Below the pieces are notes generated by a model, which saw only the letters and a list, made by a program, of their open reading frames with translations, searched no databases and had not been told where the DNA came from. Source: a virus. Taken from it: 24,228 bases of DNA. A program made the position numbers and the translations under genes. Below are positions 567 to 15,969 of the stretch, piece by piece. How positions within the stretch are numbered: position 1 is the stretch's first letter; each line of letters begins with the position of its first letter. The DNA lies in the IMG/VR virus record IMGVR_UViG_3300045994_000756, positions 1 through 24,228 of that record; one strand, 5' to 3'.

Positions 567-587
567 CCTTCGATCTAAGTTCGATTA
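567..587 (-). promoter_or_regulatory. Intergenic palindromic motif, copy A
   Basis: On the minus strand this reads AATCGAACTTAGATCGAAGG, holding an intact right half-site TTAGATCGAA. It fills the gap between the distal TAA at 597 and the ATG at 558, and its 3' end supplies the AAGGAA ribosome site. It matches copy D at 18 of 21 positions. Function (promoter, operator or start-associated sequence) is not shown by the sequence. Confidence 0.6.
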
Positions 588-596
588 TCTGCCAGC

Positions 597-737
597 TTAG
601 ACGCCGACGTAGCCGCCGTCGTACTGGGTGCTCGACGAGTCGCTGCCGCTGATAGCTGCCGAAGCGTGGAGGCCGTTGAGGGCTGCAGCCGCTTGGGTCG
701 CCGCCATCTGCGCCATCTGCAGGGCCAGCTCGGTGCG
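597..737 (-). other. In-frame extension beyond the amber stop of the helical virion protein
   Basis: After the TAG at 738-740 the same frame continues for 46 sense codons to a TAA at 597-599. The extension begins RTELALQMAQMAATQ and ends QYDGGYVGV. Its Ala/Gln-rich helix followed by a Ser/Gly-rich tail looks like a natural C-terminus for the upstream protein, and its codons end mostly in G or C like the neighbours. There is no separate ribosome site or convincing start codon here. I read it as the real C-terminus of the upstream gene, cut off by an amber codon, a sequence error, or regulated readthrough. Confidence 0.65.
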
Positions 738-1625
738 CTACTTCACGCGGTCGAGCTTCACGGTGTAGTCGAACTTGGCCCAATCGCGGTAGTGGTCCGA
801 CACGACCTTGGGCATCTCGACCTTGTACTTCTCGAGCCCGCTCTCCAGCCCGAAAAACTCGGTGGCCGTGCCCATCATCTTCGCGTTCAGGTCCGCCTGC
901 GCCTGCTTGAGCTGGATCGGCACCGCGTTGCGCAGCGCCGCGTTCTTGATGTACTCGGCCATGTTCCTGATGGTCTCGACGCGCATCTGCAGGGCCAGGT
1001 CGATCGCCCGCTTGACCTGCTCGACCTCCACGTCGAACTTCTTGATCGCGATCTCGCGCGACGACACCGCCGCCTGCTCCATGGCCGTGCGCTGCGCCGC
1101 CAGCACGCCGCCGATGGCCGCACCGGGCGGCAGTGCGTAGCCCCGCGAGGCCCACAAGCTGAGCGCCTCGGTCGTGGCCCGCGCCGCGTCGCGCTGCGCA
1201 CGGTCGCGTTCGCGAGACCAGATGCGTTCTTCGACCGTCTCGTCGAGCACGGACACGCCGCTCAGCACCCGCGCCACCCATGCCTGCGCTGGCACGAGGT
1301 TGTCGTCGAGCGGGAAGACGCGGTTGAAGTAGTCGGTCGTGTAGGCGTCGATGCGCCCTTCGAGGTAGAGGGTCAGGTTGGAGTTGATGGCCGCCTGCCC
1401 GTCGAGGTTGAGCGCGTCGATACCGGCCGGCAGGTTGAGCACGCCAGGGTTGGGCACTTTGGGTGGCGGGTCGATGGGCGCCGACAGCAGCGTGTCGACC
1501 TCGGCCTTGGCCGCGTCGATGTAGGTCTTGGCGTCGGTGCGCAGCTTAGTCGCCAGCTCGTCGACCCTCGTAAAGACATCCGAGACGACTGCGGGGGCGC
1601 CGCCAGAAAAAGGTGCAGTGGCCAT
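738..1625 (-). CDS. Helical virion protein, ends at an in-frame amber codon
   Basis: This 295-aa protein starts at an ATG preceded by a clear AGGAG site that overlaps the TAG stop of the upstream gene. It is almost wholly alpha-helical, with a Pro-rich break at about residues 50-65 and long charged helices from about residue 120 onward. I see no enzymatic motif. Similar-sized helical proteins are common near the end of phage tail operons and usually carry an Ala/Gln-rich helix and a Ser/Gly-rich tail at the C-terminus. Here such a C-terminus exists but lies beyond a TAG codon, in frame, from 737 to 597; the full product would be 342 residues with the amber position read as an amino acid. Exact role unknown; tail- or ejection-associated is inferred from position. 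Confidence 0.8.
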   Translation of the reverse strand: MATAPFSGGAPAVVSDVFTRVDELATKLRTDAKTYIDAAKAEVDTLLSAPIDPPPKVPNPGVLNLPAGIDALNLDGQAAINSNLTLYLEGRIDAYTTDYFNRVFPLDDNLVPAQAWVARVLSGVSVLDETVEERIWSRERDRAQRDAARATTEALSLWASRGYALPPGAAIGGVLAAQRTAMEQAAVSSREIAIKKFDVEVEQVKRAIDLALQMRVETIRNMAEYIKNAALRNAVPIQLKQAQADLNAKMMGTATEFFGLESGLEKYKVEMPKVVSDHYRDWAKFDYTVKLDRVK

Positions 1626-1634
1626 GGTCGGCTC

Positions 1635-3260
1635 CTATGGGTTGATCTTGAAAGTCGGCACCGCTACACGGTGATCGAAGCGGTACGACTCGACGTTCTG
1701 TCCGGGGTGCCCGCCGTTGTGCTGATAGCTGACCGCGTACAGGAAGTCGCGCCTGTACTGGTTCCACGATTCTTTCTTGACGTGCTTGATCAGCGTGGCC
1801 CGGCGCGTCCAGGTGGAGCCGAAGTCTTTCGACTCATACAGAGCGATGTCGTTGAACGAAGGACCATACAGAGGCCCCTCAGCCACAATGACCTGCAGGT
1901 TCCCGTAGGTCGTCTGTTCGGGGAAGCCGTACATGTGCGCTGGCCACGGCATGTAGTGCGAACTCCACGTCGCCCCCATGTCGCTGGTCGCGAAGAACTT
2001 GTTGTTTGTCGCTGAGGAAGCGGTGCTACTCACGCACAAACCGATGCGCCCGTTCTTGGCGTCGATGATCAGGTCGTTGGGGTAGACCCATGATGCCCCC
2101 GAGGTGATGCCGTCAGGGAACAACTCGCCCACGTTGTAGTTCGGCGGCGAGGGGATGCGGGTCAGCGCGTACAGGTTCGGGCCTGCGAACAGCCGATGCT
2201 CAAGGATGTTGTTCGGCGACCCGGCTTGATCCTTCAGGATGACGAAGGAGACGAAGTACATGTTGCGGAACCAGCGCACGCTGAGCGTGCCACCGGTCAT
2301 GTGCCGGTTGAAGTTCCACGGCGGGGTCGCCGTCGGCGGGCTGGCGGGACAGGCCCACGCGTTCGAGCACCCAGCGAACAGGTACGACAGGTCGATCTCG
2401 GTGTACGTCTCGCCGCTGTCTGTCGAGAGTAGGAAACGCGGCAGCGGCAGGTTGACGTGTGGGTAGCTGGTCGGGTTCGTCAGGTAGGCGCCGTACGCGG
2501 CCGCAGTGACCACGACCAGGTACGTGTCGGGGCGGAGAATTTGGATCGCCCCCACGTCGTAGTTGTACGTGGTGAACGCGGGGATCGTGGCTTGGAGCCA
2601 GCGTACGCCGCGCGCTTTGGCGGTGGCGTCGTCGAGCCGCACCTGGCTCTCTGGCAGCGAGCGATTGCTGCCCGCGAGGAACAGCGCCCATACGATGTTT
2701 CGCTGCTGGCTCTTCCCCCCGACCAGAGTGCGAATGACGCGGGTGTCCTGCGGGGGCGAGAATAGCCCGTCCGGCTGCGGCGTCTGTAGGTACTGCTCGT
2801 AGGTCGGAAACGCGAAGTTCTTCGATGAGGCGTACGCGATCCAGCTGCTTGGGTACCACTGCGTCGTCACCAACAGTCCGCCATTCGACCCCGACGTGAA
2901 CCCGCCGGCCAACGCCGTCTCCGAGGGGAAAGGCCAAGCAGGGTCGTCGGCGACGCCGACGTTGAATCGGGTCTTCTTGAACTGGCTGGTCATCTTGGCC
3001 GCGGCGTATGCCGTGCGGCCGTAGGAGCCCCCGTAGAGGACGCCGGGGTACGGGCCGGCATAGCCCCGCAGCAAAAACTGATCGGTGACTACTTCCGAGC
3101 CGCCCCACTGCCGCACCGACGAGAAGGCATCGCTCTTGCGCGCCTCGGTGTTCGGCGTGATCGCCTGCGCGAACGGCATGTCGAGCTTCTCCAGCGCCCG
3201 CATGTTGGCCAGGCCCTCGGGCGACGTGCCGCCGAACTCCTTGGGGCCGAAGCGGCTCAC
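1635..3260 (-). CDS. BNR/Asp-box beta-propeller virion protein (possible glycan-binding or depolymerase)
   Basis: The protein has 541 aa. Three Asp-box signatures of the S-x-D-x-G-x-T-W type are visible: STDSGETY at 279-286, SDMGATW at 426-432 and SKDFGSTW at 477-484. Such boxes mark beta-hairpins in sialidase-like and other propellers. This suggests a glycan-binding or glycan-degrading propeller, such as a tail-spike or receptor-binding subunit. I cannot identify the full catalytic set of a true sialidase (arginine triad, Tyr/Glu pair), so enzyme activity is unproven. The start is a GTG overlapping the stop of the upstream gene as GTGA, which implies translational coupling. It ends in TAG at 1635, just before the next gene's ribosome site. 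Confidence 0.75.
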   Translation of the reverse strand: MSRFGPKEFGGTSPEGLANMRALEKLDMPFAQAITPNTEARKSDAFSSVRQWGGSEVVTDQFLLRGYAGPYPGVLYGGSYGRTAYAAAKMTSQFKKTRFNVGVADDPAWPFPSETALAGGFTSGSNGGLLVTTQWYPSSWIAYASSKNFAFPTYEQYLQTPQPDGLFSPPQDTRVIRTLVGGKSQQRNIVWALFLAGSNRSLPESQVRLDDATAKARGVRWLQATIPAFTTYNYDVGAIQILRPDTYLVVVTAAAYGAYLTNPTSYPHVNLPLPRFLLSTDSGETYTEIDLSYLFAGCSNAWACPASPPTATPPWNFNRHMTGGTLSVRWFRNMYFVSFVILKDQAGSPNNILEHRLFAGPNLYALTRIPSPPNYNVGELFPDGITSGASWVYPNDLIIDAKNGRIGLCVSSTASSATNNKFFATSDMGATWSSHYMPWPAHMYGFPEQTTYGNLQVIVAEGPLYGPSFNDIALYESKDFGSTWTRRATLIKHVKKESWNQYRRDFLYAVSYQHNGGHPGQNVESYRFDHRVAVPTFKINP

Positions 3261-5266
3261 TTGATCCGCCGCGACGAGTCCACCGACATCAGCTCGGCGC
3301 CGGCCAACTCGAAGTCGGCGCCAGCGTCGTTGATGATCTCGAACTGCATGTAGTTCGCCTTGAGCCCGCGGCCCACGTCGATGCGCTGCTGCTGCATCGC
3401 GGTGTCGCTGCGCCGCGCGTCGTAGGTGTAGGCGTTGCCCTTGTCGTCGGTGACGCGCAGCTGCATCGTGCCGTAGCTGCTCACGCTCATGTACGCGGAC
3501 TCAAGGCGCTTGAGCATCTTCGAGCCGAAGTCCATCCGGCCCATGTTCACGTTGGCGGTGATCGGGGTGCCGGCATCAGTGTCGCCGTCGAGTTCGTAGA
3601 TGCCGTCGCTGCGCACGCCGTAGTAGGTGCCGCCGATCTTCGCGTAGCTGTTGAAGTTGAAGTTCTCGTAGCGCGCGCTTGCGCCGGTCTCGACGTTCAC
3701 GACCCAGACCTGGCCGGCAGCGCGCGACTGGCTGTCGATTGACGTGGCGCCGATCACGGAGTTCATTACGGCGTTCAACACCGACGTGCTCGTCAAGCTA
3801 GAGCTGGCGTCGATGGACGAGAGAGCTGCGGCGTCAATCACCGGCGTCACCGACCCGAACGAGGTGACCGTGCCCGCACTGTCCATGTAGACGACGATGA
3901 ACGTGGCGGCGCTCACGGTCGGGAAGACCCCCAGCACCGCGCCCAGGGTCGTGGTGCGGGTGACGCCGCTCAGCGGTGTGCCGCCGGGCGAGACCCCACC
4001 CGCGTCGGCGATGATGTCGGAGAAGTTAATGCCGCCCGCCGAGGCCCGGAACACCGGCAGCTGCAGGTCGGCGGCGGCATACTCACGCCCACCAAACACC
4101 GCGAACGGGAGCAGGCCCAGACCCGCGTCGCCCTGCCCCGACTGCGCCGAGCTTCCGAGCCCGATGGCCTGGAAAGCGTAGAGCATGACGTTGCCGGCGC
4201 TGTACGTCGGCACTGGTAGCGCCACAGGGTGCCCTGCGCTGCCCGCGCCGGCCCCAACAACGAACAGCCGCGAGAGGCTCAGGGCCGCAACCGCTGAGGT
4301 CTTGCCGGCTGTCACCGAGAACGGCTGCAGCGGCATGGTCGTGTTGACGGCGAAGTTGCCGCCCGCCACGAAGAGCGGCATCAGCGCGCTCTGGCTCGAA
4401 CCCATCACGTAGTCGGGGCCGGCGACCGCGACAGTCCCTGCCGCATCAAACAGGCTGATGATCGGCGTGTGCACAACGTCGGTCGACGCGTACAGGTGGG
4501 CGCGGATGTAGAGCTGTCGAATCGGGCCGGCACGCCGGCGCGTGGACAGGTAGACGTTGTAGCGCGGGTACGCGTCGCCAGATGCGGCGACCCAGTACAC
4601 CGGCTGGCTCCCGACGACCTCGATACCGAGGCGCATGCCGACCGCCGAGAGGTACGCCGGAAGCGTGTACATGATCTGACCGTTTTCCCAGACCTGCGCG
4701 GTGCTCCCGTGCACGTACCAGCCCCACGTGATCGTGCTCGGGTCGGACAGCGGGTCGCCGCCACTGCCGCCCCCGCCTGGCGCAAACCAGTCAGGGACGC
4801 CGCAGACGATCCCGAGGGGGGACGGGTCGAAGGAAAAACTCATCTCGCCCGTGAGAAACCCGGCTACGGAGATGGCGTGTGCGGCCCACCCGAAGTTGTT
4901 CACTGTCGGGGTGTCGACGACCGTCGTCGTCCCGCCGAGCGTGCCCGGCGTACCCGGCGTCGGCGGTACTGCCGGCACGGCGGCGTGGTAGACGAGCGTC
5001 GTAACGTCGGCGCAAGAGTAGACCGGCACGCTTGGGAGGAACGTGGTCGAGCCTGCGTCGCTCCCGTTGCCTGATGTGACGGCAAGCGTGGCCGACGGGT
5101 ACGAGAAACCGCAGACGTTGGTCGTGACCGCGCTCGTGTACGCGGGCACGGCTGGGGAGCCGGGGAACCCCGGCGTGCCGGGCACGCCGGGGGTTGTCGT
5201 GACGCTTGAGCCTTGCCCGACCAAGCTGCGCTTGTTGAGCGCGTTGTGACGAGCGAGGGTCGTCAT
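3257..5266 (-). CDS. Large tail/fibre-associated protein with collagen-like motifs
   Basis: The protein has 669 aa. The N-terminus carries short collagen-like Gly-X-Y runs: PGVPGTPGFPGSP at about 26-38 and PPTPGTPGTLGG at about 101-112. A Gly/Ser linker lies near 165-172. The middle is beta-rich and low in charge. The C-terminal ~150 residues form a distinct Tyr/Gly/Asp-rich region (for example YYGVRSDGIYELDGDTD, then GADFELAGAELMSVDSSRRI near the end); to my memory it recurs at the C-terminus of phage virion proteins annotated only as hypothetical. Together this suggests a trimeric tail or fibre component. It follows the previous gene by 2 bases and overlaps the next gene by 4. Confidence 0.8.
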   Translation of the reverse strand: MTTLARHNALNKRSLVGQGSSVTTTPGVPGTPGFPGSPAVPAYTSAVTTNVCGFSYPSATLAVTSGNGSDAGSTTFLPSVPVYSCADVTTLVYHAAVPAVPPTPGTPGTLGGTTTVVDTPTVNNFGWAAHAISVAGFLTGEMSFSFDPSPLGIVCGVPDWFAPGGGGSGGDPLSDPSTITWGWYVHGSTAQVWENGQIMYTLPAYLSAVGMRLGIEVVGSQPVYWVAASGDAYPRYNVYLSTRRRAGPIRQLYIRAHLYASTDVVHTPIISLFDAAGTVAVAGPDYVMGSSQSALMPLFVAGGNFAVNTTMPLQPFSVTAGKTSAVAALSLSRLFVVGAGAGSAGHPVALPVPTYSAGNVMLYAFQAIGLGSSAQSGQGDAGLGLLPFAVFGGREYAAADLQLPVFRASAGGINFSDIIADAGGVSPGGTPLSGVTRTTTLGAVLGVFPTVSAATFIVVYMDSAGTVTSFGSVTPVIDAAALSSIDASSSLTSTSVLNAVMNSVIGATSIDSQSRAAGQVWVVNVETGASARYENFNFNSYAKIGGTYYGVRSDGIYELDGDTDAGTPITANVNMGRMDFGSKMLKRLESAYMSVSSYGTMQLRVTDDKGNAYTYDARRSDTAMQQQRIDVGRGLKANYMQFEIINDAGADFELAGAELMSVDSSRRIK

Positions 5267-5268
5267 GG

Positions 5269-5712
5269 TTACGCCGTCGGCTGGCCGATCTGGAAGAAGT
5301 CGATGACTTGCGTCACGGCTGCGACGAGGGCAGCGGAGGTCAGGTTCAAGTCGCCGCCGACGGTGGCGATCGAGCCCTGCAGCCGCAGCGCCGTGGTGCT
5401 CAGCGCGTCGGTGTCACCAGTCATCTTCCAACGGAAGAATGTCGCGGTGCCGTTCGCGGCGTTCACCCCGCTCCACACCTCGCCGGGCGTTTTCGACAGT
5501 ACGCCAGCGACGGCGGGCGTCGAGAACGTGAGGCCGGTCGCGCCGCTGGCGTTCGAGATCGTGCTCAGTAGCGTGGCCGCGCCGAGCGCAGCGTCTGCGT
5601 CGACCGGCGGCGTGCCGGAGTAGAGGTAGAGCTTGCCGAGGGTCAGCAGCGAGTTGAGCGAGCCGGTCGACAGAATGCCGTTGCGCACGCCGGTGGATGC
5701 TTTCAGTGCCAT
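5269..5712 (-). CDS. Small virion protein, distant paralogue of the 10.6-11.4 kb pair
   Basis: The protein has 147 aa. Its layout resembles the two tandem proteins near 11 kb: a short N-terminal motif (STGVRNGIL here; AAVRNGMLD and VAVRNARLD there), then a strand with LYSGTPP (LSGAPP, RTGAAP), a G-T-A-aromatic strand, and a C-terminal GG/TGxDxxxxxxA segment. It therefore appears to be a third, diverged member of one small beta-rich virion family. The start follows AAGGAACCACC and palindromic motif copy B, so it probably begins a transcription or translation unit. Role unknown; a minor tail or neck component is likely from context. Confidence 0.75.
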   Translation of the reverse strand: MALKASTGVRNGILSTGSLNSLLTLGKLYLYSGTPPVDADAALGAATLLSTISNASGATGLTFSTPAVAGVLSKTPGEVWSGVNAANGTATFFRWKMTGDTDALSTTALRLQGSIATVGGDLNLTSAALVAAVTQVIDFFQIGQPTA

Positions 5713-5727: not shown

Positions 5728-5751
5728 TCTAACTTAGATCGCGCTTCGATT
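5728..5751 (-). promoter_or_regulatory. Intergenic palindromic motif, copy B
   Basis: The minus strand reads AATCGAAGCGCGATCTAAG then TTAGA. It carries the ATCGAA element, most of the left half-site (GATCTAA), a central G and half of the right half-site. It fills the gap between the TGA at 5752 and the ATG at 5712. Confidence 0.6.
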
Positions 5752-6255
5752 TCAGGCCGAAGCGAGCGAGACTCCGGCGAGTACGCGGAGCACGTCGCCG
5801 ATGTGGAAAGGTTTCGGTGAGGCGAAGCGAACGACGGAGCCCAGCAGACCGGAGCCGCTGCCCTTGGCCGCCGAGCTGGAGATGAACCCGCCGTACACGA
5901 TCGAGTCGATAGTCGAAACGAACTCGGCCGGTGTGGCGACGTTGCTGAGCGTGCCGGTGGTTGCAGCTGTGTTGCTGAACGCCACGCGCGTCGCGGCATC
6001 GTAGTAGATCAGTTCGGTCGCGACTGCGTTGAGCGTGGCTGCGGTGATCGACTGGGTCGGCGTGTAGTCGCCCGAGTACAGCCCGATGTACCAGGTGCTG
6101 CTCTGCGCCGCGCCGCGGAACGAGGCGTTGAGGATGTAGTTCTCGCCTTCGAGCGGGACCAGGTTGTCGGTCAGTTCTTCGCTCAGGATGATGCCGGCGC
6201 GAAGGTGCTGGACAAGGTATTTGAAGCCGGGCTTCATGCGTTCGGAGTAGTTCAT
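5752..6255 (-). CDS. Small tail-region virion protein (167 aa)
   Basis: I place the start at the ATG at 6255, which overlaps the previous gene's TGA as ATGA and follows a GAGGAA site. The frame is open further upstream, but that part lies inside the neighbouring gene and is a shadow. The protein starts MNYSERMKPGFKYLVQ and has a basic, hydrophobic first 35 residues. A DNLVPLEG..YILNASF segment and a GLYSGDYTP turn follow, then a beta-rich C-terminus ending VLRVLAGVSLASA. This layout recurs in small phage virion proteins located near tail genes, whose exact role is not established. It sits between the propeller-like protein and palindromic motif copy B. Confidence 0.75.
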   Translation of the reverse strand: MNYSERMKPGFKYLVQHLRAGIILSEELTDNLVPLEGENYILNASFRGAAQSSTWYIGLYSGDYTPTQSITAATLNAVATELIYYDAATRVAFSNTAATTGTLSNVATPAEFVSTIDSIVYGGFISSSAAKGSGSGLLGSVVRFASPKPFHIGDVLRVLAGVSLASA

Positions 6256-7520
6256 GGGGTTCCTCGGTGGACGATCTCGGCTTCCATATAGGAGCTGGCG
6301 TTGGCGAGCGACAAGGGCCGCGAACCGAACAAGCTGACGATGGCCTGCTTGACGCCGTTGGCATCGCGCAGAAGACTCGCGGCGGTGGCTGACGGTGTGA
6401 TGGCGACGTGCTCTTCTTGGAGGTTCTTCACGGCCCCGCCGGAGTTGCCTTCGACCAGCCCCCGCACACTCATCCAGTTGACGAGGGCGATGTCGGGGCG
6501 GCTCACATTCGAGCCAGCGATGGCGCCGTACGGCAGCACAGCACGCAACGCGCAGTCGGGGAACGCGGCATCGAGCCAGTAGGTCTGGTCGGCCGCGAGG
6601 AACAGGCCGTTGTCCGCCGGGCTCGCGCCCGTCATGACTTCGAGGATCGTGACGGGCTCGGGGAACTGAATGAACCCGCTCGTCGGGTTGTAGAGTCCTG
6701 GCATGAAGGGCTCGCTGTAGAACAGCGTCGAGCCGTTGGCGACGAGCAGACGGCCGCCGAAGCTGCGCACGATCTGCCCGGCCGGCATGGGCTGCAGACC
6801 GACGGTCTGGCACTGCGGCCCCGTCGGCGGGCTGACGACGGTGATAGCGCCAGGCCCGGTGATCTGCGCCGCGCGGTACATGGTCTCGCCGCCGACCGTG
6901 CTCATGTAGACGTTGATCCTGACGCCCGTGCTGAGCAAGTCCAGGTACGGGAAAGCGATGCCGCCGTTTGCAGGCAGCGTGAACGCGGCCGGGTGACTCG
7001 CGGCGGACTCGTGCCCTGCTGCGTCGAGGCTGGTAAAGCAGACGAGGTAGTTGCCTGCGGGCAGCAGCCCGGCGGCTCCGGTGTCGAGCCCCGGCACGGT
7101 GGCGAGCGTAGGCACCAGCGGCTTCGATGCCCCGCTGATGATCTGTTCGAGACGGCGCCCGTCGGACCAGTAGACGCCGCCGTTCGGGGCGGTCCAGAAC
7201 GACACCGGTTGCCCAGAACTCAGCCCGGTCGTCACGAGCGTCGAGGTGAGCACGCCGGCCGGCTTCGCCAGGCTGTAGAGGTTCTCGCCCTCGACGTAGA
7301 ACGCATCGTCACCGTCAGACCAGATTGACCGGCTGTCGATCCCGGCCACCTTGAGCGTGTACCCCCGGCGGCGCTTGATGCTGCCGCTGGCGGTCAGGTC
7401 GATGTTCACCGCGTCACGTTGAAGGTAGCCCTCCTTCGTGCGCAGCGAGAAGTCCGGCCGACGGTTGTCCATGCCGGGCGCGAACGTCCCGATGGTTACC
7501 GTTTTGGGGCTGGTCGACAT
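6252..7520 (-). CDS. Beta-propeller-like tail protein (tubular-B/stabilisation type)
   Basis: The protein has 422 aa. The N-terminus (GMDNRRPDFSL, then RDAVNIDLTASGSIKRRRGYTL) followed by repeating short beta blades with aromatic and Gly turns (SDGDDAFYVEGENLYSL, VYWSDGRRLEQI, LFYSEPFMPG) resembles the propeller-type tail nozzle or DNA-stabilising proteins of podoviruses (T7 gp12 and P22 gp10 classes). I cannot confirm homology by eye. Such proteins sit at the distal end of a short tail. The start follows palindromic motif copy C closely, with a weak ribosome site, and the stop overlaps the next gene as ATGA. Confidence 0.7.
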   Translation of the reverse strand: MSTSPKTVTIGTFAPGMDNRRPDFSLRTKEGYLQRDAVNIDLTASGSIKRRRGYTLKVAGIDSRSIWSDGDDAFYVEGENLYSLAKPAGVLTSTLVTTGLSSGQPVSFWTAPNGGVYWSDGRRLEQIISGASKPLVPTLATVPGLDTGAAGLLPAGNYLVCFTSLDAAGHESAASHPAAFTLPANGGIAFPYLDLLSTGVRINVYMSTVGGETMYRAAQITGPGAITVVSPPTGPQCQTVGLQPMPAGQIVRSFGGRLLVANGSTLFYSEPFMPGLYNPTSGFIQFPEPVTILEVMTGASPADNGLFLAADQTYWLDAAFPDCALRAVLPYGAIAGSNVSRPDIALVNWMSVRGLVEGNSGGAVKNLQEEHVAITPSATAASLLRDANGVKQAIVSLFGSRPLSLANASSYMEAEIVHRGTP

Positions 7521-7524: not shown

Positions 7525-7551
7525 CGATTCTATGTTAGATCGAACTTCGAT
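7525..7551 (-). promoter_or_regulatory. Intergenic palindromic motif, copy C
   Basis: The minus strand reads AATCGAAGTTCGATCTAAC followed by ATAGAATCG. It contains a perfect palindrome ATCGAA-G-TTCGAT interleaved with a perfect left half-site TTCGATCTAA and a damaged right half-site. It touches the upstream TAA (7551-7553) and ends 5 bases before the ATG at 7520. Confidence 0.65.
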
Positions 7552-7867: not shown

Positions 7868-9766
7868 CTAGTTCACGAAGTTGGTGTGGTTGACGGCCGG
7901 CGTGAGATGACGCCGGTCTTCGGCGTTAGGCATCGCGCGCCGGCTCTCAGCGTCAGGTGCGAACGAGCGCTGCTCGGCGCTGAGCGTCGTGCGTCGACTC
8001 TCGGCGCTGGGGGCATACGTGCGCTGCTCGGCGCCGAGCGTGTAGGTGCGCTCGTTGGCGACGAAGAACAGCGCCGCGCCGTTTTGCATCGACGCGAATT
8101 GTGTGAACGCCGGCATCGCCTGCACGGCGCTCAGGACGATCTTCGAGACAGCCGAAGCAGTTTGGCCAAATGCGGGCAGCGTCTGGCTGGCCGTGGCGAC
8201 ACGCGCAGCCACGGCGGGCACAGTAGCCGTGGCTGTCTGGCCGAATGCTGGCAGGGTCTGCGCGGCCGTGGCGGCCACACGCGCCGCCGCTGTGGCAGTC
8301 TGACCAAAAGCCGGCAGTGTTTGTGCGCCGGTCACCGTGACCCTGACCGTCGCGGTGGCGGTCTGACTGAACGCCGGCAGCGTCTGCGCGGCATTGATCA
8401 CAGCGCTGCCCGCCGCGATCAGGGCGGCGTTGGCTGTCTGTCCGAACGCCGGCAATGTCTGCGCGGCGTTGAGCGAAGCGATGGCGGCGGCCGTAGCGGT
8501 TTGGCTGAAGGTCGGCAGTGTCTGTGCCGCGGTCAACCCCGCGCGCGAGACGACCGTAGCAGCCTGACTGAAGGCCGGCAGGGTCTGCGCGGCGGTGATC
8601 GCCGCGGGTGCGGCCGCCGCGCTGGCCGTGGCGGTTTGACCAAACGCCGGCAGCGTCTGGGCAGCATTGAGCTTGCCGATCAAGGCGCCCGTGCTCGCGA
8701 CTGTCGCACCAGCCAGCGTGCTCGCAACTGTTGCGGCGATGTTGAGCTTTGCAGCGCTCGTCACCGTCGCGTCGGCCAGCGTTGCGCTCAGCGTGCCGCT
8801 GGCCGATGCTGAGCCGGCAAATGGCGTCTGGTACGTGACAACCAGGGCCGGGCCGTAGCCGTTGCCGGGGGCGCCCTCAACTGCAAAGATTGCGCGGTCG
8901 CCGGGCGTGTCGTTCTCAACACGCAGCATCAAGCCGTAGTTGGCGAACGTGCCGTTGATCCAGCCTTCGACCGTCTTGTTCAGGTTCGAGTTGCCGAGCA
9001 ACCACTCGACTCCGAAGGCCAAGTGCGGGATGTCGGCGACGAACACGGGCTCGGGGTCGATGTCGCCGGAGCCGAGCGCTCCCGGCGTCGTCCAGGCGTT
9101 CGTGCCGTCGTAGGTGTCCCAGGTCAGTCCGCCCTGAGTCCAGTTACGCAGCAGACGATAGGCCGACACGCGTTGGGTGCCCGCCGTGTCGTTGGTGTAT
9201 CCGGTCAGGCGCAGTTCGGTCGTGACAACATCCCGGCCGACAGGCAGGTTGCTGAGGCCGGCGAAACGGAGGAAGTAATTCCCGAAGTAGCCCGCGACTG
9301 AGTCGTTCGAGAAGTACAGCTCAAAGTTCGCGCCGAAGTTCGTCGTCGGGCTGCTGCTGAAGGCCGTCGTGTCGATGACGCCGACGAAGCCGCCGATGTA
9401 GCCGCCCTGGGTGTTCTCAGAGATGATGGCAGTGGTCGGGCTGACGCTCTGGTGGATCGCTTTCGCGCTCAGGGTGGCATCGGCCAGCGTGGCGGTCACC
9501 GTGCCGGAGATCGGCGTCAGCGGGAGCGTTCCGGTCGCCGCTACCGTCGCGCCAGCCAGCGTAGCGGTGACGGTGCCCTTGATGTTGAGCGCGCCGGTCG
9601 CCGCTACCGTCGCGCCTGCGAGCGCGACGTTGAGCGTGCCGATGCGGGTTGGTGTCGTTGCGGCTGGCCAGAACTCCGCACCCGCGATCACACTCGCTGC
9701 CGAGCCGCGGCTCGACCTGACGATCTCGGTCGTCTGGAGACCGCGGCGCCGGAACGCTTTGCCCAC
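7868..9766 (-). CDS. Repeat-rich DNRLRE adhesin/tail-fibre protein
   Basis: The protein has 632 aa, reads from a GTG at 9766, and ends in TAG. Order of modules: basic N-terminus (1-20); three LAGATVAATG-type repeats (43-103); a DNRLRE/CBM96-like beta domain (about 115-315, with LRFAGLSNLPVG, TTELRLTGYTND, SAYRLLRNWTQGGLTWDTYDG and GLMLRVEN); two more ATL-type repeats (320-365); eight copies plus one degenerate copy of an AAQTLPAFGQTATA repeat (366-562); and a charged C-terminus of AExRR repeats (570-621). DNRLRE domains are carbohydrate-associated in other proteins. I infer a fibre or adhesin whose repeats form a stalk. The repeats flank the globular domain on both sides, as if it was inserted into an array. 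Confidence 0.75.
   Translation of the reverse strand: MGKAFRRRGLQTTEIVRSSRGSAASVIAGAEFWPAATTPTRIGTLNVALAGATVAATGALNIKGTVTATLAGATVAATGTLPLTPISGTVTATLADATLSAKAIHQSVSPTTAIISENTQGGYIGGFVGVIDTTAFSSSPTTNFGANFELYFSNDSVAGYFGNYFLRFAGLSNLPVGRDVVTTELRLTGYTNDTAGTQRVSAYRLLRNWTQGGLTWDTYDGTNAWTTPGALGSGDIDPEPVFVADIPHLAFGVEWLLGNSNLNKTVEGWINGTFANYGLMLRVENDTPGDRAIFAVEGAPGNGYGPALVVTYQTPFAGSASASGTLSATLADATVTSAAKLNIAATVASTLAGATVASTGALIGKLNAAQTLPAFGQTATASAAAAPAAITAAQTLPAFSQAATVVSRAGLTAAQTLPTFSQTATAAAIASLNAAQTLPAFGQTANAALIAAGSAVINAAQTLPAFSQTATATVRVTVTGAQTLPAFGQTATAAARVAATAAQTLPAFGQTATATVPAVAARVATASQTLPAFGQTASAVSKIVLSAVQAMPAFTQFASMQNGAALFFVANERTYTLGAEQRTYAPSAESRRTTLSAEQRSFAPDAESRRAMPNAEDRRHLTPAVNHTNFVN
7904..8059 (-). 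repeat. C-terminal AExRR repeats of the adhesin
   Basis: Residues 570-621 of the adhesin repeat an 8-10 residue unit, for example ERTYTLGAEQ, RTYAPSAESR, RTTLSAEQ, RSFAPDAESR and RAMPNAEDR. The pattern is charged and strand-forming, unlike the Ala/Thr repeats before it. It may be the docking segment for the small adaptor encoded next. Confidence 0.7.
8081..8671 (-). repeat. Nine-copy QTLPAFGQTA coding repeat
   Basis: Nine in-frame units of about 21-25 codons each encode AAQTLPAFGQTATA followed by a variable Ala/Val/Ile-rich spacer. Eight units keep the QTLP-(A/T)-F-(G/S)-Q core and the ninth is degenerate (VQAMPAFTQFAS). Synonymous codons differ between copies at the DNA level, so the repeat is old or under protein-level selection rather than a fresh slippage product. 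Confidence 0.85.
8672..8809 (-). repeat. ATL-type coding repeats, second block
   Basis: Two units of the form LSATLADATVTSAAKLN and ASTLAGATVASTGAL follow the DNRLRE-like domain. They match the block at 9458-9640 on the other side of that domain. Confidence 0.75.
9458..9640 (-). repeat. ATL-type coding repeats, first block
   Basis: Three units of about 20 residues (NVALAGATVAATGALN, TATLAGATVAATGTLP, TATLADATLSAKA) precede the DNRLRE-like domain. They are homologous to the second block at 8672-8809. Confidence 0.75.
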
Positions 9767-9771: not shown

Positions 9772-10569
9772 CTACCCGTTAACGACTTCGCACACCAGCT
9801 CGAAGATGCCTGTCGCCGCGGCGTCCGGCTGCACGAGCGCCATCAGGGCGCTGCTGGTATAGATTTCCGGCATGCCGGTCTTCAGGAAGTCGTGCGTGTC
9901 GCCGAAGTTCGCGATGGGCACGCGGCCGCTCCACAAGCGGCGCAGCACCAGCACGTTGAACGTGCCGACCGTCGCGACCGTGCTGGTCACCGACTCGATC
10001 TTCTGCACGCCCGTGTCGCCGGCCTGCAGCGGCAGCTGCAGCATGCGGCCGACGATGGGCGCGACGCCGGTGGCGATCACGCCCGTGGTGCGCGCCGCGA
10101 CGCCGCTCTGGTTCGTGTACGTGACGGCGATGGACTGATTGCCCGTGAACGCCGTGACGGCTTCGATCCAGATTTCCGTGTTCGTGAAGTCAGTGCCGCC
10201 GATCACACGCGTGCTGTAGCTCGGCTGCGTGGCGAGCGTGGTCGCGGCGTTGAAGGCGTAAGCCCCGGCTTTGAACAGGCAGTCGAAGAGCGCGATGCGA
10301 CACGCCACCGTGGATCCAAAAGAGATGCCGGCGATGTAGCCGGTAGCGGCGCCGCCGAAGGCGTTGATGACTGGGAAGCCGGCGTCCGCGTCCGTGGGTA
10401 CGAGACCGTTGGCCGTGTTCGTGCCGGCGAGCACACCCGCGCCGGGGTTGCCAGCGGCTTGCAGCACCTGCGTGACCGCCAGGGCAACAGCCGTCACGCT
10501 CGCGGTCTTGATGATCTGCACGCGTTGGCTGGGCGCCGCGATCAGACCGTCGAGCGTGATGATGGCCAT
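9772..10569 (-). CDS. Conserved-looking virion protein, 265 aa
   Basis: The ATG overlaps the upstream TAA by one base (TAATG) and follows an AAGGGA site. The product begins MAIITLDGLIAAPSQRVQIIKTASVTAVA and alternates short helices and strands. A Gly/Ala-rich central part and a C-terminal segment (RRLWSGRVPIANFGDTHDFLKTG) precede a final strand ending FELVCEVVNG. No catalytic motif or membrane segment is clear. It lies between the paralogue pair and the repeat adhesin, so a tail-tip, baseplate-like or fibre-attachment role is plausible. I do not recognise the family. It ends in TAG, with the next gene starting 5 bases on. Confidence 0.75.
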   Translation of the reverse strand: MAIITLDGLIAAPSQRVQIIKTASVTAVALAVTQVLQAAGNPGAGVLAGTNTANGLVPTDADAGFPVINAFGGAATGYIAGISFGSTVACRIALFDCLFKAGAYAFNAATTLATQPSYSTRVIGGTDFTNTEIWIEAVTAFTGNQSIAVTYTNQSGVAARTTGVIATGVAPIVGRMLQLPLQAGDTGVQKIESVTSTVATVGTFNVLVLRRLWSGRVPIANFGDTHDFLKTGMPEIYTSSALMALVQPDAAATGIFELVCEVVNG

Positions 10570-10970
10570 TACGCGTTCCCTTCCGTCAGCGTCAGCGCGG
10601 TCACGTTAAAGATCTGAGCGACGGCAAACACGGCGTTGTCGACGATCATGTCGGTGCCGGTCGTGCCGACCGTGCCCTGCCAGTGACACGTGGTGCCGGC
10701 CGAGTCGTAGATGCGGAAGTGCGCGGCGGTGCCGGCGGCGTCGGCAGATGGGTCGGTCCAGGTGCCTGCGAGTGTTTTCGTACCGCCCGAGGCTGCAGCC
10801 AGCCAGTCCGACGGCAGGGTCAGCGTGGCGAGCACGGTGCCTGTATCGGCCGCGGCGCAGTTGGCCGGCGCGGCGCCGGTGCGGATGCGCATGATCGGCG
10901 TGACGCCAACGGCCGACTCGGTGGCGTCGAGGCGGGCGTTTCGGACAGCGACGGAGAACTGCAGCGCCAT
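10569..10970 (-). CDS. Small virion protein, tandem paralogue 2
   Basis: The protein has 133 aa, starts after a GGGAG site, and follows its paralogue by 1 base. It shares with the protein encoded just upstream the N-terminal VRNARLD motif, the RTGAAPANCA segment, and a near-identical C-terminal part (DSAGTTCHWQGTVGTTGTDM then IVDNAVFAVAQ). Both are 133 residues, so this is a tandem duplication. The paired Cys residues (in PANC and TTCH) are conserved between the copies. Beta-rich, no signal peptide; a minor structural component is likely. Function unknown. Confidence 0.8.
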   Translation of the reverse strand: MALQFSVAVRNARLDATESAVGVTPIMRIRTGAAPANCAAADTGTVLATLTLPSDWLAAASGGTKTLAGTWTDPSADAAGTAAHFRIYDSAGTTCHWQGTVGTTGTDMIVDNAVFAVAQIFNVTALTLTEGNA

Positions 10971-10971
10971 A

Positions 10972-11373
10972 TCAGGCTCCCGGTGCGGTCTTGCTGAAGG
11001 CCGTGACCTGCACGGTCTGCGACAGGGCGATCACCGCGTTGTCGATGATCATGTCGGTGCCCGTCGTGCCCACGGTGCCCTGCTCGTGGCACGTGGTGCC
11101 AGCGCTGTCGACGAAGCGGTAGTAGCCCGCTGTGCCGGCCGCAAGCCCGGTCGAGCTGAGCGGCAGAGAACTCAGCGCCTTTGCTCCTGCGGACGCGGCT
11201 GCGGCCCAGTCGGCGGCCAAGGTGTACTCGACCAGCAGCGTGCCGGTCTGCGCCGTGGCGCAGTTGGCCGGCGGCGCACCGCTCAGGATGCGGAGCTTGG
11301 CCGAGGCGCCCATGGTGGTCTCGATGGAATCGAGCATGCCGTTGCGGACGGCGGCCGAGAATTGGACAGTCAT
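10972..11373 (-). CDS. Small virion protein, tandem paralogue 1
   Basis: The protein has 133 aa and begins MTVQFSAAVRNGMLDSIET. The start has AAGGAAG upstream, provided by palindromic motif copy D, so this gene opens the block that runs on to the adhesin. It is homologous to the next gene along its whole length (LSGAPPANCA; DSAGTTCHEQGTVGTTGTDM; IIDNAVIALSQ) and more distantly to the 147-aa protein at 5269-5712. The family looks like a compact beta sandwich. Role unknown. Confidence 0.8.
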   Translation of the reverse strand: MTVQFSAAVRNGMLDSIETTMGASAKLRILSGAPPANCATAQTGTLLVEYTLAADWAAAASAGAKALSSLPLSSTGLAAGTAGYYRFVDSAGTTCHEQGTVGTTGTDMIIDNAVIALSQTVQVTAFSKTAPGA

Positions 11374-11381
11374 TTAGTTCT

Positions 11382-11400
11382 TCCTTCGACCTAAGTTAGA
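11382..11400 (-). promoter_or_regulatory. Intergenic palindromic motif, copy D
   Basis: The minus strand reads TCTAACTTAGGTCGAAGGA. It keeps the end of the left half-site, a central C and a right half-site with one mismatch. It overlaps the upstream TAA (11396-11398) and supplies the ribosome site of the gene starting at 11373. Confidence 0.6.
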
Positions 11401-12055
11401 GCCCGCCGTACGCGGTAACGCCGCGAGCGCGACGCGCACGTTCCTGTTCGAGCTTGGCTCTGTCGCAGTACGCTACGAACCGTGCCGCGAAGTCGTCGGA
11501 CTTGCGACGGTCGAAGGTCTCGGCGTCTTGCTTGTCGTAGGCGCGGTGCTTCATCCACAGCAGCAGGCCGAGGTGATGCATCGCGTCGATCTCGAAGGCC
11601 TGCTCGCCCGCATCCGTGATCGGCAGCAGCGGCAGGCGGCAGACCGACAGGTTCAGCGTCACGGTCTCGTTGGGCATCGGGTGGATGCGCACGGCGTGGG
11701 GCTCGAGCCCCAGCACCACGTGCTTGACCAGGCCGAGCTGCGTGGCCAGAAAGTACAGCCCGCGCCTGTCGGCCTGCTCAGCGGTGAGCAGCTCGACTTC
11801 GCGGCCAGTGTCGGCGCGCGTGGCCTTGCGGATGTTCAGGATCGACGCATGAGTCGTGTACCAGTCGGTGCCGGGCACGATGGCGAGCTGAGTCACCACC
11901 GCGGTGCGCGCGTCGATGATGCCGTTCGTCTTGCGGCAGAACTGTTGCTGCGCGTCGTCCTGGAAGCCGAAGACTTCCTCGTCGCTCCACAGGAACGGCG
12001 CTACGGTGTCGCTCATCTCGCTGCGGAAGACGGCGAGCAATTCGCTGGAGTTCAT
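11396..12055 (-). CDS. Head-to-tail adaptor-like protein
   Basis: The protein has 219 aa. It begins MNSSELLAVFRSEMSDTVAPF, then WSDEEVFGFQDDAQQQFCRKT: an all-helical N-terminus typical of phage adaptor (neck) proteins that sit under the portal and bridge to the tail. A beta-containing middle (residues 55-140) and a C-terminal charged helix (KHRAYDKQDAETFDRRKSDDF) complete the pattern. Family assignment is from sequence style and context, since I cannot run a profile search. The start overlaps the Rz gene's stop as ATGA. Its placement just after the lysis cassette rather than beside the portal is unusual. Confidence 0.7.
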   Translation of the reverse strand: MNSSELLAVFRSEMSDTVAPFLWSDEEVFGFQDDAQQQFCRKTNGIIDARTAVVTQLAIVPGTDWYTTHASILNIRKATRADTGREVELLTAEQADRRGLYFLATQLGLVKHVVLGLEPHAVRIHPMPNETVTLNLSVCRLPLLPITDAGEQAFEIDAMHHLGLLLWMKHRAYDKQDAETFDRRKSDDFAARFVAYCDRAKLEQERARRARGVTAYGGL

Positions 12056-13274: not shown

Positions 13275-13279
13275 GTCGC

Positions 13280-13489
13280 TTACTCTTTCGGACCTTGGGG
13301 CAAGCCGCGGGCGACCATGAAGGTCAGGAAGCCGATGGCCGGGCCGGCGATCTTGAGCAGCGGGTAGGCTTCGAGCACGGCCTGCTGGTCGGCGATCGGC
13401 AGCTGCAGCCAGTACGCGGCCGCGCCGGACGCGAAGAACACCACGTAGGTGCTGTAGCGCGTGAAGAGCATCTTGAGGGTGGCGTTCAT
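13280..13489 (-). CDS. Holin-like small membrane protein
   Basis: The protein has 69 aa, with two probable membrane segments at about 13-29 (TYVVFFASGAAAYWLQL) and 44-62 (LLKIAGPAIGFLTFMVARG). A short acidic loop lies between them and the tail is charged (PQGPKE). This is the size and layout of a class II holin. The ATG overlaps the previous stop as ATGA, and the gene immediately precedes the endolysin, which is the main support for a holin role. Sequence alone cannot exclude another small membrane protein. Confidence 0.75.
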   Translation of the reverse strand: MNATLKMLFTRYSTYVVFFASGAAAYWLQLPIADQQAVLEAYPLLKIAGPAIGFLTFMVARGLPQGPKE

Positions 13490-13803
13490 TTTGTGGTCCG
13501 TTGTTCGATCAGTCGGTCGCCGATGCGCTCGACCCGCAGGTCGATCTTGTTCAGCAGCGAGTTGATGCCGCTGATGTGGTCACGCAGCACCGAGTCCTGC
13601 TGCGCGTCGCGCTCGACCTGAACCTTGCGAGCGTCTTCGAGCGAAGCCACCCGCTTGTCCATGGCGTTCCAGGCCGTGAGGCCTGCACCCAGACAGGCGA
13701 TCAGCGTGATGATGTGGCCAAGGTTGACGGTGCCGTCAAACTTCACGCCGTGGCGGAAACGAACTTCTTCCAACGTGCCGGGGCGTGTCTCCACGGGATT
13801 CAC
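13486..13803 (-). CDS. Membrane-anchored coiled-coil protein in the lysis cassette
   Basis: I place the start at a GTG overlapping the upstream TGA as GTGA, giving 105 aa; a longer open frame to 14064 overlaps the neighbouring gene and is rejected. The product has a basic N-terminus, one membrane segment at about 29-46 (HIITLIACLGAGLTAWNAM) and a charged heptad-rich coiled coil from about 48 to 100 that probably faces the periplasm. It lies directly upstream of the holin-like gene and is coupled to it by ATGA. Candidate roles are a holin partner or regulator, by loose analogy to XhlA-type proteins. The family is not recognised. Confidence 0.75.
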   Translation of the reverse strand: MNPVETRPGTLEEVRFRHGVKFDGTVNLGHIITLIACLGAGLTAWNAMDKRVASLEDARKVQVERDAQQDSVLRDHISGINSLLNKIDLRVERIGDRLIEQRTTK

Positions 13804-14159
13804 TCGGCTTCGGTCTGAGCCAGCGCCCAGGCCGCGTCGCGCTCTTTGGCGTCGACCGGGAAGCCGGCCATGGCCGACAGCGCGGCTGCGTGCGGCGCGC
13901 CGGCGGCGGTGAAGTCTTCGCGTGCGCCGCGCAGCACCATCGCCTTGATGGCGGCCACGATGGCTTCCGTACGGGCGACGCCTTGAGGCGTGGTGTCGGT
14001 GATCTCGGGCTCGGGCAGATCGTCTTCCGGCACGCCGCCGGCGGCCATGACTTCCTCGTAGCACATCTCGGGCACGTGGGTGGCGACGCCCTTCTCGAAC
14101 TCGATGGCTCGGCCGAACTTGGACACGACCGTGCGGTCACGACTCATGGTGAATTTCAT
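13800..14159 (-). CDS. Hypothetical virion-region protein, 119 aa
   Basis: The start is an ATG after a GGAGA site. It begins MKFTMSRDRTVVSKFGRAIEF and continues with a short beta-rich domain (about 1-50, including FEKGVATHVPEMCYEEVMAAGG). An acidic Pro-rich linker (PEDDLPEPEITDTTP) and a helical C-terminus (63-119) follow. This N-terminal pattern is, to my memory, common in short phage proteins encoded just after the capsid genes, with no assigned function. It follows a strong UUCG hairpin, so its expression may be set apart from that of the capsid genes. It overlaps the next gene as GTGA. Confidence 0.75.
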   Translation of the reverse strand: MKFTMSRDRTVVSKFGRAIEFEKGVATHVPEMCYEEVMAAGGVPEDDLPEPEITDTTPQGVARTEAIVAAIKAMVLRGAREDFTAAGAPHAAALSAMAGFPVDAKERDAAWALAQTEAE

Positions 14160-14180
14160 GTGTTCTCCGAAAGATGAAGG

Positions 14181-14200
14181 AACGGGGCCGAAGCCCCGTT
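14181..14200 (-). terminator. Strong UUCG-loop hairpin between decoration gene and 119-aa gene
   Basis: The minus strand carries an 8-bp stem AACGGGGC/GCCCCGTT closed by a TTCG loop, a very stable C(UUCG)G-type tetraloop. It starts 12 bases after the TGA at 14213. The sequence after the stem (CCTTCATCTTT) is only weakly T-rich, so it could be a leaky terminator or an RNA-stabilising 3' end. On the plus strand the T run after it is also short. Confidence 0.55.
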
Positions 14201-14212
14201 TTCAGGTCAGGC

Positions 14213-14710
14213 TCAGACCGCGGCCTGGACTTCGCTGACGCGACCACCGATGGTGTAGAGCACCCGCACGGTGACTTTGCCGGCCGTCGCAGCCGCCACG
14301 GTGTTGGCCACCGTGATGCGGATGTTCTTGCCCGAGGTCGAGCCGGCGCGGAAGCCGGTCGGGACCAGCGCGGTGCGGCCAGCGGCCAGCATCGACGTGG
14401 CGCCGAGGTAGCGCGTGGCGTTGGCTGCGTCGCCGACCGAGATGGTCGAAGCGGTCGGGCCGACCACGGCGGTCTCGACGGCCACATCACCGCCGACGAC
14501 CACGGCACCGACCGGCAAGCCGGCGATCTCGAAGACGTTGGTGGCGACGCCGCCGATGGCGACACCGGTTGCGTTGTAGGCCGGCGCGGCGCCGGCGATC
14601 ACGTTACCGACGGTCGTCGGCATCGTGTCTGCGACCGCCGTGCTCACGTCGAACGTGAACTCGGCCATGAGCGGCCACTGGGCGCCGCGAGTTGCTTTGA
14701 GAGCGGACAT
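14213..14710 (-). CDS. Probable head decoration protein
   Basis: The protein has 165 aa and starts after an AGGAG site that overlaps the capsid gene's TAA. It is low in charge and rich in Ala, Val, Thr and Gly, with many short strands (for example VVVGGDVAVETAVVG and GKVTVRVLYTIGG) and no membrane segment or signal peptide. Position directly after the major capsid gene, with tight spacing and a good ribosome site, fits an abundant capsid-decorating or head-stabilising protein. The name is inferred from context and composition, not from a recognised motif. Confidence 0.65.
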   Translation of the reverse strand: MSALKATRGAQWPLMAEFTFDVSTAVADTMPTTVGNVIAGAAPAYNATGVAIGGVATNVFEIAGLPVGAVVVGGDVAVETAVVGPTASTISVGDAANATRYLGATSMLAAGRTALVPTGFRAGSTSGKNIRITVANTVAAATAGKVTVRVLYTIGGRVSEVQAAV

Positions 14711-14722
14711 GTTCAGGGCTCC

Positions 14723-15841
14723 TTAGTTGGCCACGTACGTCGAGACCACGCCGAAGTCTTCGGCCGTGTTCGCTTCGTAGATCGAGTTGAAGACCGGCTT
14801 CTTGAAACCGAGGATCTTGCCGATGGCGATGCCCTGCGAGTTGCCGAAGTCGAAGTCCTTCTCGTTCCACTCGGGCGACTTGATGTCGGCCATGCCGAGC
14901 GCTTGGGCGCCGCAGAACAGAACCTGCGAACCTTCCACCGTGCCGCCGGCGCCGTACTTCGAGCCCGACGAGGCGCCCGAGGTGTTCGGCACGTGGCGGA
15001 ACTCGTGCAGGTAGATGCCGTCGATCTTGACGCTGGAGCCGGTGAACAGGTTGTTGTTCTTGTCGGCCTGGCCGCTGTGGCGCAGGTTCAACATGTAGTT
15101 GTTGTCCATCTTCAGCTTGGCCATCGCGGTCGGGGTCAGGAACGCGTGGTAGGTCTCTTCGCCGCCGGCTTCCTTGATGCCGCGGATGTAGCGGTCTTTG
15201 GCGTAGGCCTTGAGCTGCACGAACATTTCCCAGGTCGGCAGGTCGGTCGCGGCCACGGCGCTCGAAGCCGCACTGGCGATCAGCGTCTTGGTGGCCGAGG
15301 TGCCGTCCCAACGCAGCCGGCGCTTGGCCGACGGGGCGGTCACGTCCTGAGCGAACTCCAGGTACTGCAGGTCGGAGCCGACGCGCAGCGAGCCGTTCGG
15401 CTTCAGCGAGTAGCTGATGCCGGCCAAGGTCAGGAACGCCATCTGGTCGATGCGGTCCGACAGCCAGTAGGCGAGCAAGTCACGGCTGTTGCCGCGGAAC
15501 TCGACGATCGACTTTTGGTCGGCCATGCGGCCTTCGTGGCGGTTCGCGTGACGCAGCTGGTCGATGCGGATCACCTGGTCGAAGGTTTGCATGCCTTCTT
15601 CGTTGTTCTCCAGCGTGCGGTCACCCGCGACGCCGTCACCGGTCAGGTCGGCCAGCAGCGTGATGACTGCGCGTGCGCCCTTTTCCGACTGCTTGAGTTC
15701 GGTGATGTGCTGGATCAGCGAGTTCGGGCCGGTGCCCAGGAACTTGTTGACGAACGACATGTTGCGTGCGTTCTTCCACAGGTCCATCGCCCAGATGGTC
15801 TTTTGCTCGTTCGTGAGCAAGCCGAAGTTCGTGAGAGACAT
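14723..15841 (-). CDS. Major capsid protein, N4 gp56-like family
   Basis: The protein has 372 aa and starts at an ATG with AAAGGGA upstream. Diagnostic stretches are GDGVAGD (68-74), LENNEE (77-82), IDQLRHANRHEGRM (93-106), and a DRIDQMAFLTLAG segment near 128-140. These match the pattern of the N4 gp56 / DUF4043 (Phage_capsid_3) HK97-fold capsid family. The scaffold gene lies upstream with two small genes and a terminator between them. Two copies of the palindromic motif (E and F) sit in its 179-base leader, so capsid expression seems to be separately initiated, as expected for the most abundant virion protein. No propeptide cleavage site is obvious. Confidence 0.88.
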   Translation of the reverse strand: MSLTNFGLLTNEQKTIWAMDLWKNARNMSFVNKFLGTGPNSLIQHITELKQSEKGARAVITLLADLTGDGVAGDRTLENNEEGMQTFDQVIRIDQLRHANRHEGRMADQKSIVEFRGNSRDLLAYWLSDRIDQMAFLTLAGISYSLKPNGSLRVGSDLQYLEFAQDVTAPSAKRRLRWDGTSATKTLIASAASSAVAATDLPTWEMFVQLKAYAKDRYIRGIKEAGGEETYHAFLTPTAMAKLKMDNNYMLNLRHSGQADKNNNLFTGSSVKIDGIYLHEFRHVPNTSGASSGSKYGAGGTVEGSQVLFCGAQALGMADIKSPEWNEKDFDFGNSQGIAIGKILGFKKPVFNSIYEANTAEDFGVVSTYVAN

Positions 15842-15857
15842 GGCGTCCCTTTCATAC

Positions 15858-15884
15858 GGTCGAAGTTAGATCGAAGTTCGATTA
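15858..15884 (-). promoter_or_regulatory. Intergenic palindromic motif, copy E (capsid leader)
   Basis: The minus strand reads TAATCGAACTTCGATCTAAC followed by TTCGACC. It holds the perfect palindrome ATCGAA-C-TTCGAT and a perfect left half-site TTCGATCTAA. It ends 16 bases before the capsid ATG, with the AAAGGGA ribosome site in between. Confidence 0.65.
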
Positions 15885-15946
15885 AGAACCAAGTGCTTCG
15901 CCGAATGTCGCTTCGTGCCTGCGGGTGGGTCTGCTGTCGTTGAGAC

Positions 15947-15969
15947 CCGATCTACGTTGGATCGAACTG
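15947..15969 (-). promoter_or_regulatory. Intergenic palindromic motif, copy F (after terminator)
   Basis: The minus strand reads CAGTTCGATCCAACGTAGAT followed by CGG. The left half-site has one mismatch and most of the right half-site is intact. It lies 6 bases after the T tract of the terminator and about 105 bases upstream of the capsid gene, the typical place for a promoter restarting transcription. Confidence 0.6.

Follow-up and report, generated by a model that had tools for sequence, protein, structure and literature searches.

In mycobacteriophage L5, stoperators occupy promoters as well as short gaps between genes, in an orientation that follows transcription (PMC9283540). In cluster K mycobacteriophages, start-associated sequences (SAS and ESAS) are positioned a few bases before start codons and are conserved before the same gene families, and half of the SAS carry an inverted repeat just upstream (PMC3203893). 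Cluster O mycobacteriophages (Corndog) carry 34 copies of a 17-bp dyad, a dispersed palindromic repeat without assigned function, of which 14 are intergenic and the spacing is fixed (PMC4351075), and in phage P1 the 11 late promoters all carry a conserved inverted repeat of 9 bp to which Lpa binds (PMC10695390). The element described here occurs in the gaps between genes of a phage family related to Pseudomonas phage KPP25. As with the L5-type stoperators of cluster A mycobacteriophages, many sites are spread through temperate phage genomes, at promoters and in short intergenic spaces and oriented with transcription; the L5-type sites, however, are 13 bp long, asymmetric and bound by a monomer, with more than 20 sites, whereas here an 11-bp dyad core stands in arrays of several half-sites, with 0–14 exact sites per genome. 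Because the L5 site is asymmetric and is read by a monomer, the element is not placed in the L5 stoperator family. Its location a few bases before start codons and its conservation before the same gene families recall the cluster K SAS, which in contrast are 13-bp asymmetric repeats that contain a Shine-Dalgarno (SD) sequence, lie 3–7 bp before the start and accompany non-structural genes only; the present element is palindromic, also precedes structural genes and is often without an SD sequence. It is dispersed and palindromic like the cluster O repeat but lies mostly in gaps, in arrays over promoters. As in P1, dispersed promoters have an inverted repeat in common, but the distance from the dyad to the −10 element is not constant and the dyad is dispensable at orthologous promoters.

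Half-site arrays in the gaps of the window and its relatives

The window, that is, the whole stretch of DNA analyzed, is a 24.2-kb IMG/VR virus record (IMGVR_UViG_3300045994_000756, positions 1 to 24,228). Genes were called with a simple caller written for the present analysis, and all lie on the minus strand save one call at 1–600, which looks spurious. PHROG matches identify the portal, the major capsid protein (MCP; 14723–15841, phrog_334), an endolysin and other structural genes. Three paralogous virion proteins (phrog_3758; 5269–5712, 10569–10970, and 10972–11373) are encoded in one structural operon. A short unit (around gtctggccgaatgccggcag as read on the plus strand) recurs in many imperfect copies within the gene at 7868–9766, whose product is probably a repetitive structural protein. 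No near DNA match to the window was found among known phages. Its MCP shares about 60% identity with the KPP25 protein, 70–83% with those of most fetched metagenomic relatives and 57–83% with copies in bacterial assemblies, and the element-bearing group consists of soil and freshwater phages that are kin of KPP25. A contig from a separate IMG/VR record (G035; loci L006 and L173) encodes an MCP identical to that of the window, is 100% identical to the last 3,879 bases of the window (a 3.9-kb overlap) and then runs past the window end, carrying the sequence of the window phage on through the terminase small subunit gene (terS) into a divergent early region. In the gene at 597–1625 (minus strand) an in-frame TAG occurs at 738–740, past which the frame stays open for ~46 further codons, to the TAA at 597–599; this may represent readthrough, recoding or an assembly error, the coverage of the twin contig G035 not extending to window positions 500–1000.

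The original prediction placed six copies of one composite element in gaps of the window, and all six are present and intergenic. Read on the gene-sense (minus) strand, copy A (567–587; ATCGAACTTAGATCGAAGGAA) holds the dyad array TCGAACTTAGATCGAA 8 nt before the ATG at 558 and overlaps the AAGGAA ribosome site. Copy B (5728–5751; ATCGAAGCGCGATCTAAGTTAGAC) is made up of the exact dyad TCTAAGTTAGA (5728–5738) and an outer ATCGAA half and precedes the virion gene at 5269–5712, and copy C (7525–7551; ATCGAAGTTCGATCTAACATAGAAT), before the gene for the head-closure protein Hc3 (6252–7520), is a dyad array, TCGAAGTTCGATCTAACATAGAAT, that runs into a −10 hexamer. Copy D (11382–11400; TCTAACTTAGGTCGAAGGAA), with one mismatch, includes the TAA stop codon of the gene at 11396–12055 as well as the ribosome site of the gene at 10972–11373. 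Copy E (15858–15884; ATCGAACTTCGATCTAACTTCGA) lies within the 5' UTR of the MCP gene and has two dyads in one array (15860–15870 and 15871–15881), 18 nt before the MCP start, and copy F (15947–15969; TTCGATCCAACGTAGATCG) is positioned at the predicted start of the MCP transcript, where it overlaps the first pseudoknot-like module of the leader described below. The distances of 4–16 nt to start codons given for copies A–E and the AAGGAA overlap in copies A and D were likewise correct.

For counting, the core was defined as TCKAA-N-TTMGA or TTMGATCKAA, where K is T or G and M is A or C. The window contains five exact and two one-mismatch sites of the first pattern, all in gaps, and three exact and two one-mismatch sites of the second in gaps, with a single one-mismatch match of the latter within a gene, at 13636. 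Dinucleotide-shuffled window gaps yield ~0.01 of each core pattern and at most 1, compared with the 5 and 3 observed, and TTCGATCTAA with no more than one mismatch is found 5 times against an expectation of 0.36. Half-site distances measured in 1,142 distinct gaps (172.6 kb) show that the composite element originally proposed is one realization of a more general arrangement, the better unit being an array of the 5-bp half-site TCKAA in fixed register. Convergent half-sites are separated by spacers of 1 (88 pairs), 8 (38), 12 (14) and 19 bp (9), divergent half-sites by a spacer of 0 (31), and direct repeats have periods of 7 (55), 11 (45) and 18 bp (11), while the remaining distances are mostly represented by only a few each. 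Two half-sites may be turned toward each other with 1 bp between them, adjoin back to back without a spacer, or follow one another with a period of 7 bp. Whether all copies share one orientation relative to the genes, as had been proposed, cannot be judged within the window because the core is palindromic; in the relatives a direction is given by the extra half-site at period 7, which stands in sense at 64 starts and in antisense at 4.

The sites are not spread through genes, either in the window or in its relatives, and at homologous gaps of related phages they recur before orthologs. Gaps make up 10.5% of the bases in 1.07 Mb of relatives yet hold 57 matches of TCKAASTTMGA, against 16 in called genes, and the reversed pattern gives 3 matches. 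Five long relatives have 11, 8, 6, 4, and 4 gap sites and the window has 5, compared with 0.01–0.04 after shuffling. In all, 25 sites precede MCP orthologs, 11 precede Hc3 orthologs (gene in 29 records), 10 precede terS orthologs (gene in 35 records) and 7 precede orthologs of a PD-(D/E)XK nuclease (gene in 18 records), with many further single cases before early and late genes on both strands; a late regulon confined to one structural operon, as first suggested, is thus too narrow a description, since relatives carry sites before early genes on the other strand. The window phage itself has a seventh copy outside the window, TTCGATCTAAGTTAGACTtgcgcgcATG on G035, immediately ahead of the gene that occupies the terS position, on the border of the divergent region and at a spot already indicated by relatives. 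In host assemblies that contain site-rich relatives, the phage contig bears 8 of 15 sites (G019) and 6 of 10 (G018), and sites off the phage contig, with TCTAA-type sites counted, are near the reversed-pattern background. A host regulon is ruled out by these background numbers on the host chromosomes.

Overlap with promoters and predicted leaderless starts

A TANA[AC]T hexamer ends 5–9 nt before the start codon at 28 of 2,263 distinct starts, and 24 of the 28 belong to terS or Hc3 orthologs. An SD-like sequence is present at none of these 28 starts, compared with 71% of all starts. At terS and Hc3 the −10 ends 5–9 nt before the ATG and no SD sequence is found, so leaderless mRNAs are predicted for both genes. 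The typical form at these genes, TCTAAC-N-TCTAAG-TTAGAAT-N7-ATG, in which the dyad center lies at −14 and overlaps the −10 itself, would look like a leaderless promoter beneath an overlapping operator. Copy C (TAACATAGAATcgacgaATG) would be one such case and is predicted from its sequence to be the operator of a leaderless promoter, the predicted −10 TAGAAT (7527–7532, minus strand) ending 6 nt before the ATG (7520–7518) with no SD sequence.

At MCP promoters the dyad center is positioned at −19/−20 (14 cases), −24/−25 (5 cases) or +3 (1 case) relative to the assigned −10. The predicted −10 of the MCP promoter in the window is TACAGT (15966–15971, minus strand), and just upstream of this promoter lies an intrinsic terminator-like hairpin, AGAGCCGC-ACAC-GCGGCTCT followed by a T run (15975–16000, minus strand), the hairpin as read from the letters. 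At locus L062 the promoter TTGCGT-N17-TAGAGT has the dyad within its spacer. A promoter of the form TTGCGC/TTGTGC-N17-TAGAAT is found upstream of MCP at six loci (L012, L017, L018, L020, L021, and L040), where the −35 and the spacer are formed by the 3' arm and the T run of the preceding terminator, with the result that terminator and promoter overlap.

A putative repressor operator and competing explanations

Among the three functions offered in the original prediction, a repressor operator is supported, whereas a phage RNA-polymerase promoter and an RNA signal are disfavored. The dyad arrays, which are specific to the phages, overlap or adjoin sigma70-like promoters at positions that vary, from which we infer, as on balance the probable explanation, an operator array of TCKAA half-sites with a stoperator-like layout, bound cooperatively by a putative phage-encoded protein that is most likely a repressor. 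Such a protein would engage the half-sites in alternating and directly repeated orientations. At MCP, terS, Hc3 (copy C) and copy F, the bound protein would cover the −10 or spacer region and block initiation, and at gap sites with no evident −10 (copies A, B, D, E, and their equivalents) it might block internal promoters or act as a road-block to elongation, in the manner of the L5 stoperators, at which the bound repressor halts both initiation and elongation. In this temperate family the effect would be to hold lytic genes off in the prophage or to postpone their expression. A repressor operator is the most economical explanation because occlusion tolerates variable dyad positions (−14, −19.5, −25, and +3), which contact by an activator fits poorly. 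An immunity repressor should have sites close to the first early gene, and it counts against a repressor that the sole exact dyad within the divergent regions of genomes G002 and G004 is at terS, with none close to that gene. Sites with no visible promoter could act otherwise, and the directional extra half-site would also suit an activator.

Relatives of the window phage are present as prophages. Genome G011 is identical to positions 44,739–112,563 of a 136.6-kb Herminiimonas sp. CN contig, where this prophage of 67.8 kb is flanked by 44.7 kb and 24 kb, and other relatives were found in Janthinobacterium and Rhodocyclales assemblies; the lifestyle of the window phage we infer from these relatives. 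An integrase is encoded by 11 of the 18 long genomes compared. At least four sites are present in 9 of the 11 integrase-bearing genomes compared with 1 of the 7 others (Fisher p = 0.013, not corrected for relatedness), although G008 and G009, which bear an integrase, have only 0 and 1 sites. In the search for the regulator, Pfam (E ≤ 0.01) matched no repressor family in most early proteins of the site-rich genomes G002 and G004 and gave a weak Sigma70_r4 match in one of the two; this result, like the low site numbers of G008 and G009, also speaks against a repressor. A fast-evolving early family of about 300 aa, termed A4, adjoins the primase-helicase gene (e.g. L096, 16880–17788); the nine genomes with strong matches to it each have four or more sites. 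Neither Pfam nor PHROGs gave a match for A4, whose predicted model is confident and all-helical (pLDDT 85), with no fold match in the PDB. A4 is not named as the regulator, since its co-occurrence with the sites may reflect phylogeny only and weak relatives are present in G007, G008, G009, and G013.

The main rival to a repressor operator, which we nevertheless regard as unlikely, is a site for a phage late or middle transcription activator, with the dyad replacing the −35 in the manner of the Lpa inverted repeats at P1 late promoters. The many dispersed and near-identical promoters, the directionality of the array relative to the gene and the lack of a recognizable −35 at several site-bearing promoters (terS and Hc3) would all agree with an activator. 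The P1 inverted repeat, however, has a constant place relative to the −10 and is needed for activity, whereas the dyad here occupies the several positions given above, overlaps the −10 itself at terS and Hc3 and has decayed at L025, L050, and L054, orthologous promoters that retain the −10. In addition, L062 has a −35 of its own at N17, and many sites have no visible −10 at all. A smaller probability still is assigned to a binding site for a phage nucleoid, segregation, replication or packaging protein, whose placement in gaps would arise only through coding constraint; dispersal over the genome and the precedent of the cluster O dyad (PMC4351075) speak for such a site, but the association with specific orthologous gene starts and −10 elements is strong and many gaps are without any site.

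An RNA-level signal near start codons, whether a hairpin, a translation enhancer or a processing site like the mycobacteriophage start-associated sequences, would account for the proximity of the dyads to starts, with 61 of 64 start-upstream dyads ending within 30 nt of the start (median distance 17 nt), and for the ribosome sites contained in copies A and D; an SD-like sequence is found at 25 of the 64 dyad-bearing starts. The T or G states of the two arms vary independently, however (62 TT, 36 mixed TG, and 9 GG, compared with 59.8, 40.4, and 6.8 expected under independence), indicating that RNA pairing is not preserved and that the array is read as DNA rather than as an RNA hairpin. The presence of both inverted and direct registers also implies reading of the duplex, and some dyads at MCP promoters lie upstream of the −10, hence outside the transcript, which together make an RNA signal highly improbable. 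Least credible is a promoter for a phage-encoded RNA polymerase, which the near-identical sites repeated before genes might suggest, as the −10 and, in several relatives, the −35 of the MCP promoter are host-type, the −10 often persists where the dyad has been lost, sites recur both upstream and downstream of the −10, and no single-subunit RNA polymerase is annotated in KPP25 or matched by Pfam among most early proteins of G002 and G004.

The capsid leader, a candidate RNA family

The MCP transcript opens, between copies F and E, with a structured region that is conserved in most relatives. In the window this tandem pseudoknot-like leader occupies 15900–15956 (minus strand), and it is found at most of the loci L006–L085, L147, and L149, with a conserved NCGACA in both modules. 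Module 1 (15927–15956, minus strand) reads CGT-AGATC-GGGTCT-CA-ACG-ACAGC-AGACCC, and its main stem is supported by permutation, with a score of 11.4 compared with 3.9 ± 0.6; its short first stem is less certain. Module 2 (15900–15923, minus strand) reads CGC...CGAA-GCG-ACA-TTCG, and its general form, CGY-L-S2-RCG-ACA-S2', corresponds on sequence grounds to an H-type pseudoknot. Covariation supports this second module across 50 relatives, whose sequences give a nearly gap-free alignment: 56 cells are changed on both sides compared with 20 ± 6 after shuffling (0 of 500 shuffles reach 56), 76.8% of cells pair compared with at most 41.8% when the alignment is slid, and the permutation score is 12.4 compared with 7.5 ± 0.5. 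Rfam gives no match at the leader at E ≤ 1 in the window and none at gathering thresholds in seven relatives, and the leader is considered a candidate new RNA family that is open to direct testing. Translational control of capsid synthesis, protection of the mRNA and put-like antitermination are possible roles. The put RNA of phage HK022 is a roughly 70-nt two-stem RNA (PMC9378689), and the MCP leader resembles it as a two-part structured RNA of about 70 nt near the 5' end of a phage transcript. The put element is, however, described as two stem-loops with a triplex and with no pseudoknot, whereas the MCP leader has the appearance of two H-type pseudoknots that carry a conserved NCGACA.

Taken with the arrays, the leader would form part of a new dispersed-operator system in widespread temperate KPP25-like phages, in which a candidate protein would read TCKAA in a 7/11-bp lattice over the leaderless promoters of terS and the head-closure gene and over the capsid promoter, whose transcript would open with a new tandem pseudoknot RNA regulating capsid synthesis or the long late transcript; this wider picture is tentative, and we hold it somewhat less probable than the operator array by itself. 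The gene-control logic of most uncultivated phages is not known. In a phage family that occurs as prophages in Betaproteobacteria, a single sequence word that can be read from the DNA alone marks the control points, allows leaderless genes to be predicted and points to a regulator still to be discovered. Stoperator-like control is best known from mycobacteriophages; its presence in Proteobacteria, if true, would mean either that it evolved repeatedly or that its distribution is much broader. A second conserved leader-like sequence (GGCTAGAGCCTGCAGCTCGAAAAGCG...) is found after a dyad site and before one gene family, at positions 9276 of L051, 338 of L066, 2918 of L068, and 7297 of L070.
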